Shown here one piece after another: positions 8,030 through 41,421 of a DNA stretch of 64,000 nucleotides. Source of the DNA: Thermaerobacter marianensis DSM 12885 (GTDB lineage Bacteria > Bacillota > Sulfobacillia > Thermaerobacterales > Thermaerobacteraceae). Made by a program: the position numbers and the translations under genes. How positions within the stretch are numbered: the stretch's first letter is position 1; each line of letters opens with the position of its first letter. Below the pieces are notes generated by a model. It searched no databases, was not told where the DNA came from, and saw only the letters and a program-made list of their open reading frames with translations. Location: assembly GCF_000184705.1 (NCBI RefSeq), contig NC_014831.1:496001-560000 (forward strand). The letters are read 5' to 3'.

Positions 8030-8135
8030 CCCATCCCGGCTCGGATCGGCGCGGCGCCCGGTCGTAAGGGGACCGTCCAAGGGGCGCCGGCCGCGGGGCA
8101 CCGGAAACGGGCGACCGCCGGACGCCGGGAGCCGT

Positions 8136-8218
8136 GCGAGGGTGCTGGAACTGGCAGACAGGCACGTTTGAGGGGCGTGTGGGTTTATCCCGTGCGGGTT
8201 CGAGTCCCGCCCCTCGCA
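8136..8218 (+). tRNA. tRNA-Leu, anticodon GAG
   Basis: Class II tRNA. The acceptor GCGAGGG pairs with CCCTCGC, with discriminator A at 8218. The anticodon stem CACGT/GCGTG encloses loop TTGAGGG, giving anticodon GAG. A long variable arm and T arm GCGGG-TTCGAGT-CCCGC follow. It has the same isoacceptor type as the tRNA 140 bases upstream but differs through most of the stems, so it is not a recent duplicate. A terminator separates the two, so it needs its own promoter, which I could not pinpoint. Confidence 0.94.
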
Positions 8219-8230
8219 CAAGGGACGCCG

Positions 8231-8259
8231 GGCGGCGTGGCTGAGGCCACGCCGCCTTT
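8231..8259 (+). terminator. Terminator after tRNA-Leu(GAG)
   Basis: Perfect 11-bp stem GGCGGCGTGGC / GCCACGCCGCC with loop TGAG, followed by a short TTT. Confidence 0.8.
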
Positions 8260-8465
8260 GCCGTTTCCGGCCGGCGCGGGATGGGCAACCCGCCCTGGCA
8301 ACGATAAGATCGAGCCGGAGCCCGTCCCTGGCAAGGTCGCCCGGGCACCCCTCAGGGCGGCGGCAGCCGCCGGGCCGGTGCGATCCGCCGGTCCGCCGGC
8401 GCCGCGCGGCGACCCAGGGCACCTCCACGAAACGAAGCCGACCCGGCGAGGCAGGTGAACCGGCC

Positions 8466-9224
8466 GTGCAGCAGCTGTTTCCCGAAGCGCGCCCGTGGCC
8501 CGACCCGCTGACGGTCTACGACGACCTCGACCTGCCCGAGGGCCCGCCCCACCGTCCGTACGTGCTGATCAACATGGTCACCACGGTGGACGGCAAGGTC
8601 ACCATGGGCCGCGGCACCGTCAAGGAGCCCATCGGCAGCAAGGTCGACCACGCCCTGATGGCGCGCCTGCGCGCGCCCGTGGACGCCGTGTTGCGTGGTG
8701 CCGGCACCGTGCGCGCCTACGACGTCCCGCCCCGCGTTCCCGACGAATACGCCGAGCGCCGCCAGGCCCGCGGCCTTCCCGCCCAGCCCCTGCCGGTGGT
8801 GATCACGGGCTCGTGCGACCTGCCCCTCGACGCCCGGTTCTTCCGCGAGGCGCCGCGGCGCCCCCTGGTGCTCACCCGCCGGGCTGCGCCCGCCGAGAAG
8901 GTCGAGGCCGTCCGCCAGGTGGCCGACGTGGCCTTCGCGGGGGAGGAAAAGGTCGAGATGCGGGCGGCCCTGGCCCTGCTGCGGGAGCGGTACGGCATCC
9001 GCCGCCTGCTCAGCGAGGGCGGCCCGGCGGTCAACTTCGCCATGCTGGAGGCGGGCGTGGTGGACGAGCTCTTCTGGACCGTGGCGCCCAAGATCGTCGG
9101 CTACGCCGAGGACAAGACCATGGTGATGGGCCCCCACCCCCTGGAGCCGCGGATCCGGCTCAGCCTGGCCAGCGCCTTCTTCCACGAGGGCGAGCTGTTC
9201 CTGCGCTACCACGTGCTGGACTGA
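8466..9224 (+). CDS. RibD C-terminal-type reductase
   Basis: Stand-alone member of the RibD_C/dihydrofolate-reductase-like fold, which in riboflavin synthesis reduces 5-amino-6-(5-phosphoribosylamino)uracil with NADPH. GTG at 8466. The protein (252 residues) shows NMVTTVDGKVTMG near the N-terminus (family S/T-x-DGK signature), AVLRGAGTVRAYD, and LLSEGGPAVNFAMLEAGVVDELFWTVAPKIVG, the typical nucleotide-binding segment. The deaminase half of RibD is absent. No riboflavin genes or FMN riboswitch are adjacent, so the substrate may differ from that of classical RibD. It converges on the folP gene, with seven bases between them. Confidence 0.88.
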   Translation: MQQLFPEARPWPDPLTVYDDLDLPEGPPHRPYVLINMVTTVDGKVTMGRGTVKEPIGSKVDHALMARLRAPVDAVLRGAGTVRAYDVPPRVPDEYAERRQARGLPAQPLPVVITGSCDLPLDARFFREAPRRPLVLTRRAAPAEKVEAVRQVADVAFAGEEKVEMRAALALLRERYGIRRLLSEGGPAVNFAMLEAGVVDELFWTVAPKIVGYAEDKTMVMGPHPLEPRIRLSLASAFFHEGELFLRYHVLD

Positions 9225-9231
9225 GCGGGGC

Positions 9232-11079
9232 TTACGATCGCGCGGCGGACGAACCGGCGCCCGGGGTGCGCGGCTCCCGCTCGCCTTCCGCCGCGGGGAG
9301 GCGGCCCAGTTCCCGCAAGGGCCGGCGCTGGTGGCCGGTGACGGCGTCGAAGGGCCAGCCGTCCGCCGGTTCATCCCACCCGCGGACCAGGGCGTCGGCC
9401 ATCCGAGCCACCCGGGCGTTGGCCCGCACGTCGTGGACCCGGACCATGTCCGCGCCGTGGACCACGGCCAGGGCGGTGGTGGCCAGGGTGCCCTCCAGCC
9501 GGTCGCCGATGGGGGTCTCCAGCACGTTGCCGATGACCGACGTGCGGGAGGCGCCGAGCAGCACCGGGTAGCCCAGGCTGCGGAAGGCGCCCAGGTTCTC
9601 CAGGATCTCCAGGTTGTGGCGGGTGCGCTTGCCCACGCCGATGCCGGGGTCGACCACGATGGCCTCGGGCCGTACGCCCGCGGCCAGGGCGCGGGCGACC
9701 CCCTCCTGCAGGTAGCGGGCGATGTCGAGGACCACGTCGTCGTAGCGGGGCTCCCGGGCCAGGCTGCGCGGGTGGCCCTGCAGGTGCATGACAACTACGC
9801 CCGCCCCGTACCGGGCGCACACGGCGGCCAGGCCGGGGTCGGCGTGGAGGCCGCTGATGTCGTTGATGATGTGGGCGCCCGCCTGCAGGGCCGCCTCGGC
9901 CACCGGCGCCTTGTAGGTGTCGATGGAGATGGGGACGTCGACTTCGCGCACCAGCCGCTCCACCACGGGCATCAGGCGGGCCAGCTCCTCCTCCAGCTCG
10001 GGCTTGGAGGCGGCGATGTTGGCGCTCTCGGCACCCACGTCGATCAGGTCGGCGCCTTCCGCCACCATCTCCAGGGCCCGCCGCACCGCCCGATCCGGCG
10101 CGTTGTACCGGCCGCCGTCGGAAAAGGAGTCGGGGGTGACGTTGAGCACGCCCATGATCAGGGTGCGCTCGCCGAAGACGAGGCTGCGGCCGCGAAAGTC
10201 CACCCGCAGCGGCTGGCGGGCCAGGGGCACCGGGCCCGCGACCCCTAGGGCGGCGGGCCCGTCCCCGCGGGACATTGCCGCCGCGGTGAAGGGCAGGGAC
10301 TGCAGCGCTCGGGCCAGGGCACGGCCGGCGGGCCGCTCCGGCTCCTGCCGCAGCCAGCGGCCGGCCAGTTCCCCCAGTTCCGTGACGCTGCCGGCCACCA
10401 GCAGGCTGGCGGCGCCCGCGTAGGGGCGCCAGGTGGCGAAGCCCGTACGGGCGGCGGCCTGGTGGGCCAGGCGGCGCGCCACCTCCGGCCGCAGGGGCGC
10501 GATCTCGAAGGTGTGGCGCCAGAGGTCGTCCAGGGCCGTGGCGCCGGGCCAGCCCGCCCGCACCAGGCGGGCCGCGATGGGGCCGGCGTGCCAGGGGCCG
10601 CGGTGGACGGCCACCACGGCGTCCGGTTCGGGGACCAAGGGCATGGCGCGGGTTCCTCCTTGACCGGGTTGGGTCACGGGTCCTGGAGCGGGTGCCGGGG
10701 AGGGGCGGGGCGGTCCGGAAAGCCGGGACCGGGCGGAGGGGGCGACCCTGCCCGTCTCCTGGCCGTCCGCGGCGCCCGGCCGGGACGCCCCGGCACCGTC
10801 CCCCAGGGTGGCCGGAGCCAGTTCGGCCCACGCTTGCTCCGCCAGCGGACCCCACAGGTCGTAGTGGGGGATGCGGCCGTGGTGGCAGATGCCCCGCGCC
10901 GGCAGGCCGTAGCGGGTGCCCCAGGCCGCCAGGCGCCCTTCGTCGGCACACAGCACTTTGACCAGATACGGGGCCACGGTGCCGCCGGGCACGGGACGGT
11001 GCCAGGGCTGGCGCAGGACGGCCAGCTGGCCGCGGCGGGCCCGTTCCAGGGCGCGCCGCCATTGCTCCACCAGGCGCAA
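9232..11079 (-). CDS. folP: Dihydropteroate synthase fused to a DUF4031-like domain
   Basis: DHPS condenses 6-hydroxymethyl-7,8-dihydropterin pyrophosphate with p-aminobenzoate in folate synthesis. The TTG start at 11079 has GAGGAGG seven bases upstream, and the frame runs unbroken for 615 codons. Residues about 30-90 resemble DUF4031 (KVLCADEGRLAAWG, IPHYDLW). A Gly/Pro-rich linker follows, then a roughly 120-residue region like the N-terminal extension of clostridial DHPS, then the TIM-barrel core (LIMGVLNVTPDSFSDGG, SIDTYKAPVAEAAL, HIINDISGL, VVMHLQGHPR, DPGIGVGKRTRHNLEIL). Two normally invariant motifs are altered: the STRPG loop reads SANIA, and SRKS reads SRTS. An internal ATG at 10644 has its own AAGGAGG, so a shorter DHPS of about 470 residues may also be made. 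Confidence 0.88.
   Translation of the reverse strand: MRLVEQWRRALERARRGQLAVLRQPWHRPVPGGTVAPYLVKVLCADEGRLAAWGTRYGLPARGICHHGRIPHYDLWGPLAEQAWAELAPATLGDGAGASRPGAADGQETGRVAPSARSRLSGPPRPSPAPAPGPVTQPGQGGTRAMPLVPEPDAVVAVHRGPWHAGPIAARLVRAGWPGATALDDLWRHTFEIAPLRPEVARRLAHQAAARTGFATWRPYAGAASLLVAGSVTELGELAGRWLRQEPERPAGRALARALQSLPFTAAAMSRGDGPAALGVAGPVPLARQPLRVDFRGRSLVFGERTLIMGVLNVTPDSFSDGGRYNAPDRAVRRALEMVAEGADLIDVGAESANIAASKPELEEELARLMPVVERLVREVDVPISIDTYKAPVAEAALQAGAHIINDISGLHADPGLAAVCARYGAGVVVMHLQGHPRSLAREPRYDDVVLDIARYLQEGVARALAAGVRPEAIVVDPGIGVGKRTRHNLEILENLGAFRSLGYPVLLGASRTSVIGNVLETPIGDRLEGTLATTALAVVHGADMVRVHDVRANARVARMADALVRGWDEPADGWPFDAVTGHQRRPLRELGRLPAAEGEREPRTPGAGSSAARS
10644..10661 (-). promoter_or_regulatory. 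Internal ribosome site inside the DUF4031-DHPS frame
   Basis: AAGGAGG at 10655-10661 (minus strand) sits ten bases before an in-frame ATG at 10644, exactly between the low-complexity linker and the DHPS part. It is as strong as the site for the full-length start, so either two products are made or the ORF is two fused genes of which the DHPS part can be read alone. Confidence 0.55.
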
Positions 11080-38537: not shown

Positions 38538-39185
38538 GTGTCCCGGCACCGCAACCTACCCCTCTATTCCATCGGCGCCGTGTCCAACCTGACGGGCCTG
38601 AGCGAGCGCCGCATCCGCTACTACGAGCAGGCGGGCCTGGTGCGCCCGGCCCGGACGGCGGGCAACCAGCGGCGCTACAGCCAGGCCGACGTCGAGCGAC
38701 TGCTGGAGATCAAGGGGTTGTTGCAGCAGGGGCTCCACCTGGACGACATCCGCCGCCGCCTGCTGGAGCGCCGCCGCCGGGAAGCGATCATGGGCCCGCC
38801 TGACGTACCGGTCGCCCTGGCGGCCGTCGCCGCCGATCCGTGGCCGCTCCCCGTGTCGGGCCGCGGGGGGCGGGGAGCCGAACCCGGCCTGCCCCGGATC
38901 GACCGGCTCTTCCGCGGCCCCGCACCCGCGGTACCCGGCGTCGGCACGGCGCGCACCCTGTATCCGGCCCTGGATCCGGCCGTGCTCTACCAGGCCCGCC
39001 GCCACCAGCGGCCGCGGGACGGGCGGCCGTGGGACCGGTTGCCGCGGCCCGGCCGGGATGCCCGGGACGCCAGGGACGGCAAGGAGGGCGGGGCCGGCGG
39101 GGACGGGCTGCGCTCGCCCCAGGGACCCGGCCGGCGGGGCACGCCGGGAGAGGGGGCGGGGCACGATGGGCCGGCCGCCGGCTGA
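38538..39185 (+). CDS. glnR: GlnR-type MerR-family nitrogen regulator
   Basis: Repressor of nitrogen-assimilation genes that, in Bacillus, binds DNA when glutamine synthetase is feedback-inhibited. GTG at 38538 follows AAGGGGAGGGGG. The winged helix (LPLYSIGAVSNLTGLSERRI, RYYEQAGLVRPARTAGNQRR, DVERLLEIKGLLQQGLHLDD) aligns closely with B. subtilis GlnR over about 80 residues. The C-terminal 130 residues are Gly/Arg/Pro-rich and much longer than the short glutamine-synthetase-contacting tail of Bacillus GlnR. The end overlaps the glnA start by 20 bases. The upstream box at 38373 suggests autoregulation of the pair. Confidence 0.92.
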   Translation: MSRHRNLPLYSIGAVSNLTGLSERRIRYYEQAGLVRPARTAGNQRRYSQADVERLLEIKGLLQQGLHLDDIRRRLLERRRREAIMGPPDVPVALAAVAADPWPLPVSGRGGRGAEPGLPRIDRLFRGPAPAVPGVGTARTLYPALDPAVLYQARRHQRPRDGRPWDRLPRPGRDARDARDGKEGGAGGDGLRSPQGPGRRGTPGEGAGHDGPAAG

Positions 39186-40485
39186 GCCGGTTCCTCCGGA
39201 CGAGCCGGCCCGGCGGCTGGCGGCCCAGGGCGTGCAGCTGGTGCAGCTGGTCTACGCCGACGTGCTGGGCGTCCAGAAGGGGCTGACCCTGCCCGTGCTT
39301 CAGGCCGGCGCCGCCTGGGCGGGGGGCGTGCGGGTCGACGGCGCCTCCCTGGAGGGATTCATCCGGGTCGAGGAGCGGGAGATGCGCCTGCGGGCGGGCG
39401 GGGAGGAGGTCTTCGTGCTGCCCTGGACCCCGGCCGAGGCGCGGGTCGCGGCGGTGCCCGCGGCCATCGACACCCGGGACGGCCGGCCCTTCGACGGTTG
39501 CCCGCGGGAGCGGCTGTTGCGGGCCGTGCGGCGGCTGGACGAGCTGGGCGTGGCGGTGGAGCTGGCCTTCGAGATGGAGTTCTACCTGCTGCGCCGGCGC
39601 CGCGGCCGGCCGGAGGTGCGGGTGCCCGACCGGGCCGGGTATCTGGACCTCTCGGTGCGGGACGCGGGGGAGCCGGTGCGCCAGGAGATCGCCCTGGCCC
39701 TGGAAGGCATGGGCATCGTGGTGGAGTCGGTCCACCACGCCGTGGGGCCTGCCCAGCACGAGATCGACCTGGGCTGGCAGCCGCCCGTGGCGGCCGCCGA
39801 CCACTTGATGGTGGCCAAGCGGGCGGTGTACGCCGTGGCCGAGCGGCACGGCATGCACGCCACCTTCCTGCCCAAGCCCCGGACCGGGAGCCACGGTTCG
39901 GGGCTTCACGTGCGCATGCGGGTCCGTCCCCTGCCGGGAGCGGCGTGGAGCCGGCCGGCGGTCACCCGCCACTGGCTGGCGGGGCTGCTACATCATGCAC
40001 GGTCCCTCTGCGCCGTCACCAATCCGCTGGTGAACTCGTACAAGCGGCTGGTGCCGGGGTTCGAGGCCCCGGTGTACGTGGTCTGGGGGCGCGATACCCA
40101 CGCCCCCCTGGCGCGGCTGGTGGCGGGGTGGGAAGCGGGGGAGCTGGAGTGGCGGGCCCCGGATCCGTGCTGTCACCCTTATCTGGCCCTGGCGGCGCTG
40201 CTGCGGGCGGGCGCCGACGGCATCGAGCGCCGGCTAGAGCCGCCCCCGCCCCTGGAGGAGAACGTCTTCGAGCTCGACCCTGCGGAGATCGCGGCCCGGG
40301 GGCTGGAGCCGCTGCCCGGCAGCCTGGGCGAGGCCCTGGACGACATGCGGGTCAGCGGGCTGATCCGGGACGCGCTGGGGGAGTACCTGTTCACCCGCTA
40401 CCTGGAAGCGAAGCGGATGGAGTGGGACATCTACCGGGTGCAGGTCCACCAGTGGGAGCTGGACCAGTACCTGCCGGTGTTCTGA
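39166..40485 (+). CDS. glnA: Glutamine synthetase type I-alpha, divergent active site
   Basis: ATP-dependent synthesis of glutamine from glutamate and ammonia; dodecameric family. ATG at 39166 lies inside the end of glnR. Family segments occur in order over 439 residues: DGASLEGFIRVEEREM, FEMEFYLL (metal Glu), GPAQHEIDL, GSGLHVRM, NPLVNSYKRLVPGFEAP, PDPCCHPYLALAALL and the C-terminal YRVQVHQWELDQYL. Compared with B. subtilis GlnA, the segment QNRSPLIRIP reads DTHAPLARLV, so the substrate-binding Arg of NRS is lost, and NGSGMH reads HGSGLH. These changes could alter substrate use or activity. The arrangement glnR-glnA and the C-terminus still point to GlnA. Confidence 0.88.
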   Translation: MGRPPAEPVPPDEPARRLAAQGVQLVQLVYADVLGVQKGLTLPVLQAGAAWAGGVRVDGASLEGFIRVEEREMRLRAGGEEVFVLPWTPAEARVAAVPAAIDTRDGRPFDGCPRERLLRAVRRLDELGVAVELAFEMEFYLLRRRRGRPEVRVPDRAGYLDLSVRDAGEPVRQEIALALEGMGIVVESVHHAVGPAQHEIDLGWQPPVAAADHLMVAKRAVYAVAERHGMHATFLPKPRTGSHGSGLHVRMRVRPLPGAAWSRPAVTRHWLAGLLHHARSLCAVTNPLVNSYKRLVPGFEAPVYVVWGRDTHAPLARLVAGWEAGELEWRAPDPCCHPYLALAALLRAGADGIERRLEPPPPLEENVFELDPAEIAARGLEPLPGSLGEALDDMRVSGLIRDALGEYLFTRYLEAKRMEWDIYRVQVHQWELDQYLPVF

Positions 40486-40559: not shown

Positions 40560-40596
40560 AAAAAAAGAGCCACCGGTCATCCAGGCGGCCGGTGGC
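40560..40596 (-). terminator. Terminator of the glutaredoxin-like gene (minus strand)
   Basis: 8-bp stem GCCACCGG / CCGGTGGC, followed on the minus strand by TCTTTTTTT. It lies 28 bases after the stop of the 40624-40914 gene and between two convergent genes. Confidence 0.85.
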
Positions 40597-40623
40597 GCTT
40601 GACCGGAGATGGCCGAGGCGGCC

Positions 40624-40914
40624 TCAACGGTCGCCGTCGCCGTTGCCCGCGCCCGCGGCCTCGCCGTCGCCCTCGCCCTTCAGCGCCCGCTCGATGGCCT
40701 CGCGGTGGCGCCCGAAGCCGCGGAAGACCTTCCCGTCGATGACCACCGTGGCCGTGACGCGGCTCTGGTACTGGTTGACCAGGCGGTCGTAGGCCGCGGG
40801 GTCCTGGCGGACGTCGTAGGCGGTGAACTCGACGCCCAGCTGGCGGAGGAACTCCTCCGCATGGCGGCAGTCGGCTCAGCCGGGCTGCATGTAGAGCTCG
40901 ACCTTGCGGGGCAC
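40624..40914 (-). CDS. Selenocysteine-containing glutaredoxin-like protein
   Basis: Small thiol/selenol redox protein of 96 residues, with codon 13 an in-frame TGA (40876-40878) read here as selenocysteine. GTG at 40914 follows GAGGAGGG by six bases. The frame is MPRKVELYMQPG, Sec13, A, D, Cys16, so Sec replaces the first Cys of a CxxC motif at its usual place after strand 1. Downstream is a normal glutaredoxin-like fold (HAEEFLRQLGVEF, YDVRQDPAAYDRLV, TATVVIDGKVFRGFGRHREA) and an acidic Gly-rich tail. The usual cis-Pro before strand 3 (TVPT) is Ala (VTAT). A SECIS-like hairpin follows the TGA at the right distance, and a strong terminator ends the gene. It resembles the Uxx-type (seleno)protein group I recall from Firmicutes. 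Conventional gene calling would miss it or call a broken ORF. Confidence 0.85.
40843..40860 (-). promoter_or_regulatory. Bacterial SECIS-like hairpin
   Basis: Minus-strand GCGGAGG-AGTT-CCTCCGC, a perfect 7-bp stem with a four-base loop, starting 15 bases after the in-frame TGA, so the loop begins 22 bases after it. This fits the published bacterial SECIS model as I recall it (loop 16-37 bases after UGA, a G in the first two loop positions). It lies inside the reading frame and encodes part of the helix after the active site. Confidence 0.75.
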
Positions 40915-40968
40915 GGCCGACCCTCCTCGTGGCAGCCTGCGCTGCCTGTCCTCATGGATCTTCATGGA

Positions 40969-41421
40969 TTATACTGTGACATCGCCTGCAGCCGATACCA
41001 TCCACTGCAACCGATCCCCGGTCCGGGTGCCGGTCGCCGCAATGGTTCCTGCGGGAAGCTCCAGCACGGCCTGCCCGCGCCAGACCGGCGGTCCCACTCG
41101 CCCCGGGTCCAGCCGGTAGGCTGCCACCACCCGGCCCTGCCGGTCCACATGCACCACGTCGATGGCAAAGGCCATGCCCAGGCCGTGGACCCACCGGCAC
41201 GGCCACAGCACCAGCCCCTCGCCGGGGGCCAGGGCCGGCCGGCCCAGCAGCCCGCGGGCCCGGGCCCGCCATGAGGCGGCCACGGTGATCCGGTCGCCCA
41301 GCACGGTCCCCCGGGTGAGATTGATGACCCGGACCGGTCCCGGGCCTGGCGGCCGCCGGGGGCTCCAGGCGATGGGCCGGTCCGGCTCCCGCCCCGCGTC
41401 CTGGTCAACACCCCAATGCAT
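40969..41421 (-). CDS. DUF192 family protein
   Basis: 150 residues; ATG at 41421 has GGGGAGG ten bases upstream. The DUF192 core is clear: ARGLLGRPALAPGEGLVLWPC, WVHGLGMAFAIDVVHVDRQGRVVAAY and AVLELPAGTIAATG. Proteins of this family are small beta-rich domains of unknown function, often exported, but no signal peptide is seen here and the N-terminal 35 residues are Pro/Arg-rich. It lies 54 bases upstream of the selenoprotein gene on the same strand, so they may be co-transcribed. Confidence 0.88.
   Translation of the reverse strand: MHWGVDQDAGREPDRPIAWSPRRPPGPGPVRVINLTRGTVLGDRITVAASWRARARGLLGRPALAPGEGLVLWPCRWVHGLGMAFAIDVVHVDRQGRVVAAYRLDPGRVGPPVWRGQAVLELPAGTIAATGTRTGDRLQWMVSAAGDVTV

Follow-up and report, generated by a model that had tools for sequence, protein, structure and literature searches.

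Among solved structures, BC3987 from Bacillus cereus (PDB 3ZIJ/3ZIT) comes closest to the redoxin reported here. It is a protein of the Cp9/YruB type (TIGR02196) with a minimal thioredoxin/glutaredoxin fold and a CPPC active site. In the study of BC3987, Pro54, the cis-proline, was conserved in all the sequences considered, and a hydrogen bond from Thr8 was described as raising the activity and tuning the buried Cys. Glutaredoxin-like proteins with selenocysteine (Sec) are also already known, as was pointed out when the present locus was first noticed. Verified Sec UxxC glutaredoxins include cGrx1 of Clostridium oremlandii and a Geobacter Grx (PMC13188914, Table 1), and the Uxx-star families (NF041212, NF041211, NF041114, NF047338) are likewise glutaredoxin-like proteins of Bacillota with Sec at the first active-site position. 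The gene described below adds a variant of that class. A literature search pairing Thermaerobacter with selenoprotein found no related paper.

The gene is in Thermaerobacter marianensis DSM 12885, and was found in a stretch of 64,000 nucleotides (the window). Its features, and those of its neighbours, are as follows; G000 is the host genome, and the other genomes are introduced below.

40624..40914, minus strand: predicted gene for a Sec-containing redoxin of glutaredoxin/thioredoxin fold, 96 codons plus the stop TGA at 40626-40624 (Pfam match, orthologs, structural model).
40876..40878, minus strand: in-frame TGA, codon 13, predicted selenocysteine and first residue of the U-A-D-C motif (TGA in G000, G001 and G003; TGC in G004 and G452).
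40867..40869, minus strand: TGC codon of Cys16, the putative resolving or second active-site residue (invariant in 32 homologues).
40843..40860, minus strand: bSECIS-like hairpin GCGGAGG-AGUU-CCUCCGC, 7 bp, -12.8 kcal/mol (constraints of the bSECIS model, PMC13188914).
40750..40752, minus strand: codon 55, Ala at the cis-Pro position (alignments; Ala in 5/5 orthologs).
40922..40927, minus strand: ribosome-binding site AGGAGG, 5' of the GTG start (sequence reading).
40560..40597, minus strand: terminator-like inverted repeat and T run (read by eye).
40966..41411 (start codon approximate), minus strand: DUF192 (COG1430) gene, upstream neighbour (Pfam DUF192, 6.8e-16).
39058..40485, plus strand: glutamine synthetase-like gene, convergent, a syntenic marker (corresponding position occupied by orthologs in G001-G004).

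The frame opens with GTG at 40914, nine bases downstream of the AGGAGG, and about 50 nt after the end of the DUF192 gene on the same strand. Between the TGA at codon 13 and the stop there are 83 sense codons. The terminator consists of an 8-bp GC-rich repeat, 40597-40590 with 40576-40569, and then a T run at about 40567-40560; an automatic terminator scan of the locus reported none because its loop limit is 8 nt.

When the TGA is read as Cys, the product matches the Pfam Glutaredoxin family (PF00462) with 44.4 bits and E 1.9e-11, against a cut-off of 22.9. AlphaFold predicts, with a pLDDT of 84, a redoxin of the order beta-alpha-beta-alpha-beta-beta-alpha that ends in a disordered Gly-rich tail, and it places Sec13 at the N-terminal end of helix 1. 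BC3987 is the best PDB match both by sequence (E 6e-14) and by fold, and it has its CxxC at the same position. When the two structures are aligned, about 41-42% of the residues are identical, the TM score over the target is 0.94 and the deviation is 0.8 A. The next match by fold is the selenoprotein glutaredoxin cGrx1 (7C10), with 32% identity; the selenoprotein Grx proteins belong to a different clade, in which the classical cis-Pro is presumably kept. Among the NCBIfam models the top match is YruB (TIGR02196), with 67.8 bits against a cut-off of 88.55; the Uxx-star model NF041212 also matches (41.1 bits, E 1.5e-10, cut-off 66). None of the matches of the redoxin to glutaredoxin, Uxx-star and YruB models reaches the cut-off of the model, and those to Uxx-star families 1, 2 and 3 stay far below it. 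By score, then, it belongs to no named Uxx-star family.

Several residues distinguish the active site from that of BC3987. The motif is UADC rather than CPPC, the position of Pro54 holds Ala (Ala55), and the equivalent of Thr8, residue 9, is Met or Val in this clade. The two characteristic marks of the BC3987/Cp9/NrdH group, the cis-Pro and the [ST] that follows the [IV]-x-[ILV]-[YF] strand, are therefore both absent. Since Ala and Met/Val are also found in the orthologs that have Cys in place of Sec, they characterise the clade as such and do not follow from the use of Sec. To our knowledge, a redoxin with Ala for cis-Pro is otherwise known from engineered thioredoxins only.

The preliminary description of this locus, made from the sequence, had pointed to the ribosome site and GTG start, to a TGA falling at codon 13 where the first Cys of CxxC belongs, to 83 further sense codons followed by a normal stop and a T-tract terminator, to good fold signals and to the replacement of cis-Pro by Ala. 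All of these were seen again here, and the Ala proved to be common to all the orthologs. The description also expected standard annotation to lose or split the gene; the result that bears on this is the score of the product, which lies below the cut-offs of the NCBIfam models named above.

Under the standard code codon 13 is a stop, and the list of open reading frames contains no frame that crosses it. Both are as would be expected of a decayed gene in which a genuine stop arose by accident at this codon. Against this, the same TGA is found at codon 13 in two congeners (G001 and G003), with about 74% protein identity to the host and with that similarity continuing after the TGA. An ortholog from a metagenome genome of the same family (G004) has TGC, and thus Cys, at position 13, as does a clear cis-Ala ortholog in a distant genome of the Bacillota (G452), and altogether Cys or Sec occupies this position in 32/32 aligned homologues. 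The coding sequence 3' of the TGA has dN/dS of 0.24-0.53, which indicates purifying selection. Together with the Sec machinery described below, these results make a decayed gene very improbable. An error of sequencing or assembly can always be proposed as a general possibility, but the three TGA-bearing genes come from distinct species and differ in the synonymous codons around the TGA. The presence of this TGA in each of the three genomes excludes such an error for practical purposes. The orthologs, the Sec/Cys pairs and the purifying selection thus leave neither a pseudogene nor a sequencing error to explain the TGA.

The orthologs of G001, G003 and G004 lie at the same place as the host gene, flanked by glutamine synthetase and DUF192 (the nucleotide comparison for G003 stops short of DUF192). 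This synteny is kept in G001 and G004, and also in a further congener, G002, which has both neighbours with no redoxin between them (L068 6203-6460; G002:C1 about 480200-480460); the redoxin is therefore dispensable. G002 still has selA, selB and a TGA-containing selD. In the redoxin tree the four family members form an open fork, which is compatible with a Sec/Cys change in either direction. A scan of contigs with a Cys-containing alignment, whose patterns demanded a Cys codon, gave no more than two matches: the Cys ortholog in MAG ZC4RG37, a Bacillota isolate with which the contig of G004 agrees in sequence, and an actinobacterial sequence of distant kinship. It is worth adding that in another genome, G007, selA is preceded on its own strand, at a distance of about 115 nt, by a Sec homologue of the redoxin (L034 1501-1740; G007:C12:7749-7988 and 8104-9477).

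The host genome is a single circular record of 2,844,696 bp, and the machinery for Sec is present on this chromosome. There is a tRNA-Sec (82.8 bits; called tRNA-SeC with anticodon tca by ARAGORN), a SelA match of 571.8 bits, a SelB match above its family cut-off, and a SelD that itself contains one in-frame TGA. SelD and the redoxin are the selenoproteins identified in the host, in a comparison that covered formate dehydrogenase and HesB-type homologues; for both of these, the stretches matched in the genus have no in-frame TGA. One elongation-factor-like match in the host has a single in-frame TAA (L002; G000:C1:2769389-2770558) and is probably a joined match.

The bSECIS model of the bacterial recoding hairpin (PMC13188914) has a loop of 3-9 nt, a stem of 4-16 bp, a spacing of 16-37 nt, a G within the first two loop positions and a minimum free energy (MFE) of at most -7.5. 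In the redoxin gene a perfect 7-bp hairpin (40860-40843) begins 15 nt after the UGA, with its apical loop, AGUU, 22 nt from the UGA. It lies within all the limits of the model, although the rate of doing so by chance is high in this gene. In random synonymous recodings of this GC-rich gene, made with its own protein and codon usage, a stem as good was found in 43% (stem p 0.43, MFE p 0.10, for this gene alone), so that the hairpin is weak evidence when the single gene is considered.

Comparison of homologues is more informative, and it is this comparative evidence, not the hairpin of the single gene, that carries the case for Sec decoding. All three Sec orthologs have exactly the same hairpin, and its codons agree among them in 6/6 cases, compared to 31/48 elsewhere (p 0.09, suggestive only). 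In the Cys ortholog of G004 it is reduced to 4 bp from 7, and to -4.7 from -12.8 kcal/mol. The protein segment AEEFLR is unchanged there, and the hairpin is broken by two synonymous changes, GCG to GCA and CGC to CGG. For a wider comparison, Bacillota homologues were gathered by search, 27 with Sec and 39 with Cys. A stem of at least 6 bp at the place of the hairpin is found in 18 of the 27 Sec sequences and in 3 of the 39 Cys sequences, with a Mann-Whitney p of about 1e-5 that is uncorrected for the kinship of the homologues; because the homologues are related, the p values for the hairpin are too optimistic. Covariation was analysed in 17 Sec hairpins, which were split by register into a group with a 4-nt loop and a shifted group with a 3-nt loop, since an ungapped analysis over the mixed loop lengths is uninformative. 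The pairs change between G-C and C-G, C-G and U-A, and G-C and A-U, and none of 2000 shuffles was as well paired (the 17 having been picked for having a hairpin). The hairpin thus tracks Sec across the homologues.

There are sequences that depart from this pattern. Several Sec homologues (the clade of G013, G038, G109 and G132) lack the hairpin, and recoding there would use another element, or no element of this kind. The Sec redoxins of the hairpin-less clade carry the motif YHSPGUxxC (L075, L076, L077, L080, L084, L090). One Cys homologue, in G475, retains a 6-bp SECIS-like hairpin (L131; G475:C62:17031-17252), possibly as a result of a recent change from Sec to Cys.

Readthrough of UGA by near-cognate tRNAs exists in bacteria, and the UGA could in principle be misread or suppressed as Cys, Trp or another residue with no involvement of SelB. 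This, however, is as improbable as the decayed gene: other genes of the host end in TGA, as does the redoxin itself, the full Sec system is present, the position is catalytic and the hairpin tracks Sec. It is therefore almost certain, as judged from these genomes, that Sec is inserted at codon 13. The UGA would be decoded by the SelA, SelB, SelC and SelD of the host, helped by the downstream hairpin, and the product would be a 96-residue redoxin of glutaredoxin fold with a U-A-D-C active site. The preliminary description had reached the same reading of a Sec redoxin and not a decayed gene, and had implied that the host makes Sec. It had also named three results that would speak against it, namely a genome lacking sel genes, homologues with neither Cys nor Sec at this position, and a sequencing error; all three were examined and none of them was found.

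The likeliest function of the redoxin is selenol-disulfide exchange, which the fold and motif make reasonably probable. Sec13 would attack a disulfide as the nucleophile and Cys16 would resolve the product, which would make the protein a thiol/selenol-disulfide reductase like those of the BC3987/YruB/NrdH group. A flavin disulfide reductase, and not glutathione, would probably recharge it. The loss of cis-Pro and of the equivalent of Thr8 makes the reductase role less certain.

The loss of cis-Pro also raises a different proposal, that Sec-x-x-Cys with the cis-Pro missing is a binding site for a metal ion or for a [2Fe-2S] cluster, either instead of disulfide exchange or besides it. PMC6210436, citing Su et al. 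2007, reports that P75S/T/A in human TRX1 is enough for [2Fe-2S] incorporation, and it has been suggested that cis-Pro may prevent metal binding (PMC2757866). Metal-ligand roles have also been suggested for the Uxx-star selenoproteins in the selenoproteome review. Within the present family, the Ala is shared by the five orthologs, one of which is the Cys form of another lineage. In G452 the gene of this Cys form follows that of a Zn/Cd-type heavy metal P-type ATPase on the same strand, after a gap of about 120 nt (L132 6885-9165). On the other hand, the ATPase is a neighbour in one genome only, and the Thermaerobacter gene stands between glutamine synthetase and DUF192, with no metal gene beside it. 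The cluster in human TRX1 also used Cys73, for which the redoxin, with two active-site residues only, has no counterpart, and cis-Pro may be lost without any binding of metal. Metal binding of this kind is on balance unlikely. A further form of the proposal, in which a natural clade of thioredoxin fold lacking cis-Pro would use Sec/Cys-x-x-Cys as a ligand site for metal or [2Fe-2S], with Sec as a ligand in an aerobic thermophile, is slightly less likely still. Taking decoding and function together, a living gene for a Sec redoxin, decoded by SelA/SelB/SelC/SelD and probably acting in disulfide exchange, is the reading that the sequences make highly probable.

The series of Sec and Cys orthologs provides a clean natural test of the SECIS element, in that an identical segment of protein is encoded by synonymous codons that either keep the hairpin or break it. 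The redoxin is also a natural case of the change from cis-Pro to Ala, and both its Sec form and its Cys form are open to expression. Finally, selenoproteins are rare in strict aerobes, according to a recent review (PMC13188914), and Thermaerobacter has been described as strictly aerobic (PMC3035304); the redoxin would thus be a selenoprotein in a setting where few are found.
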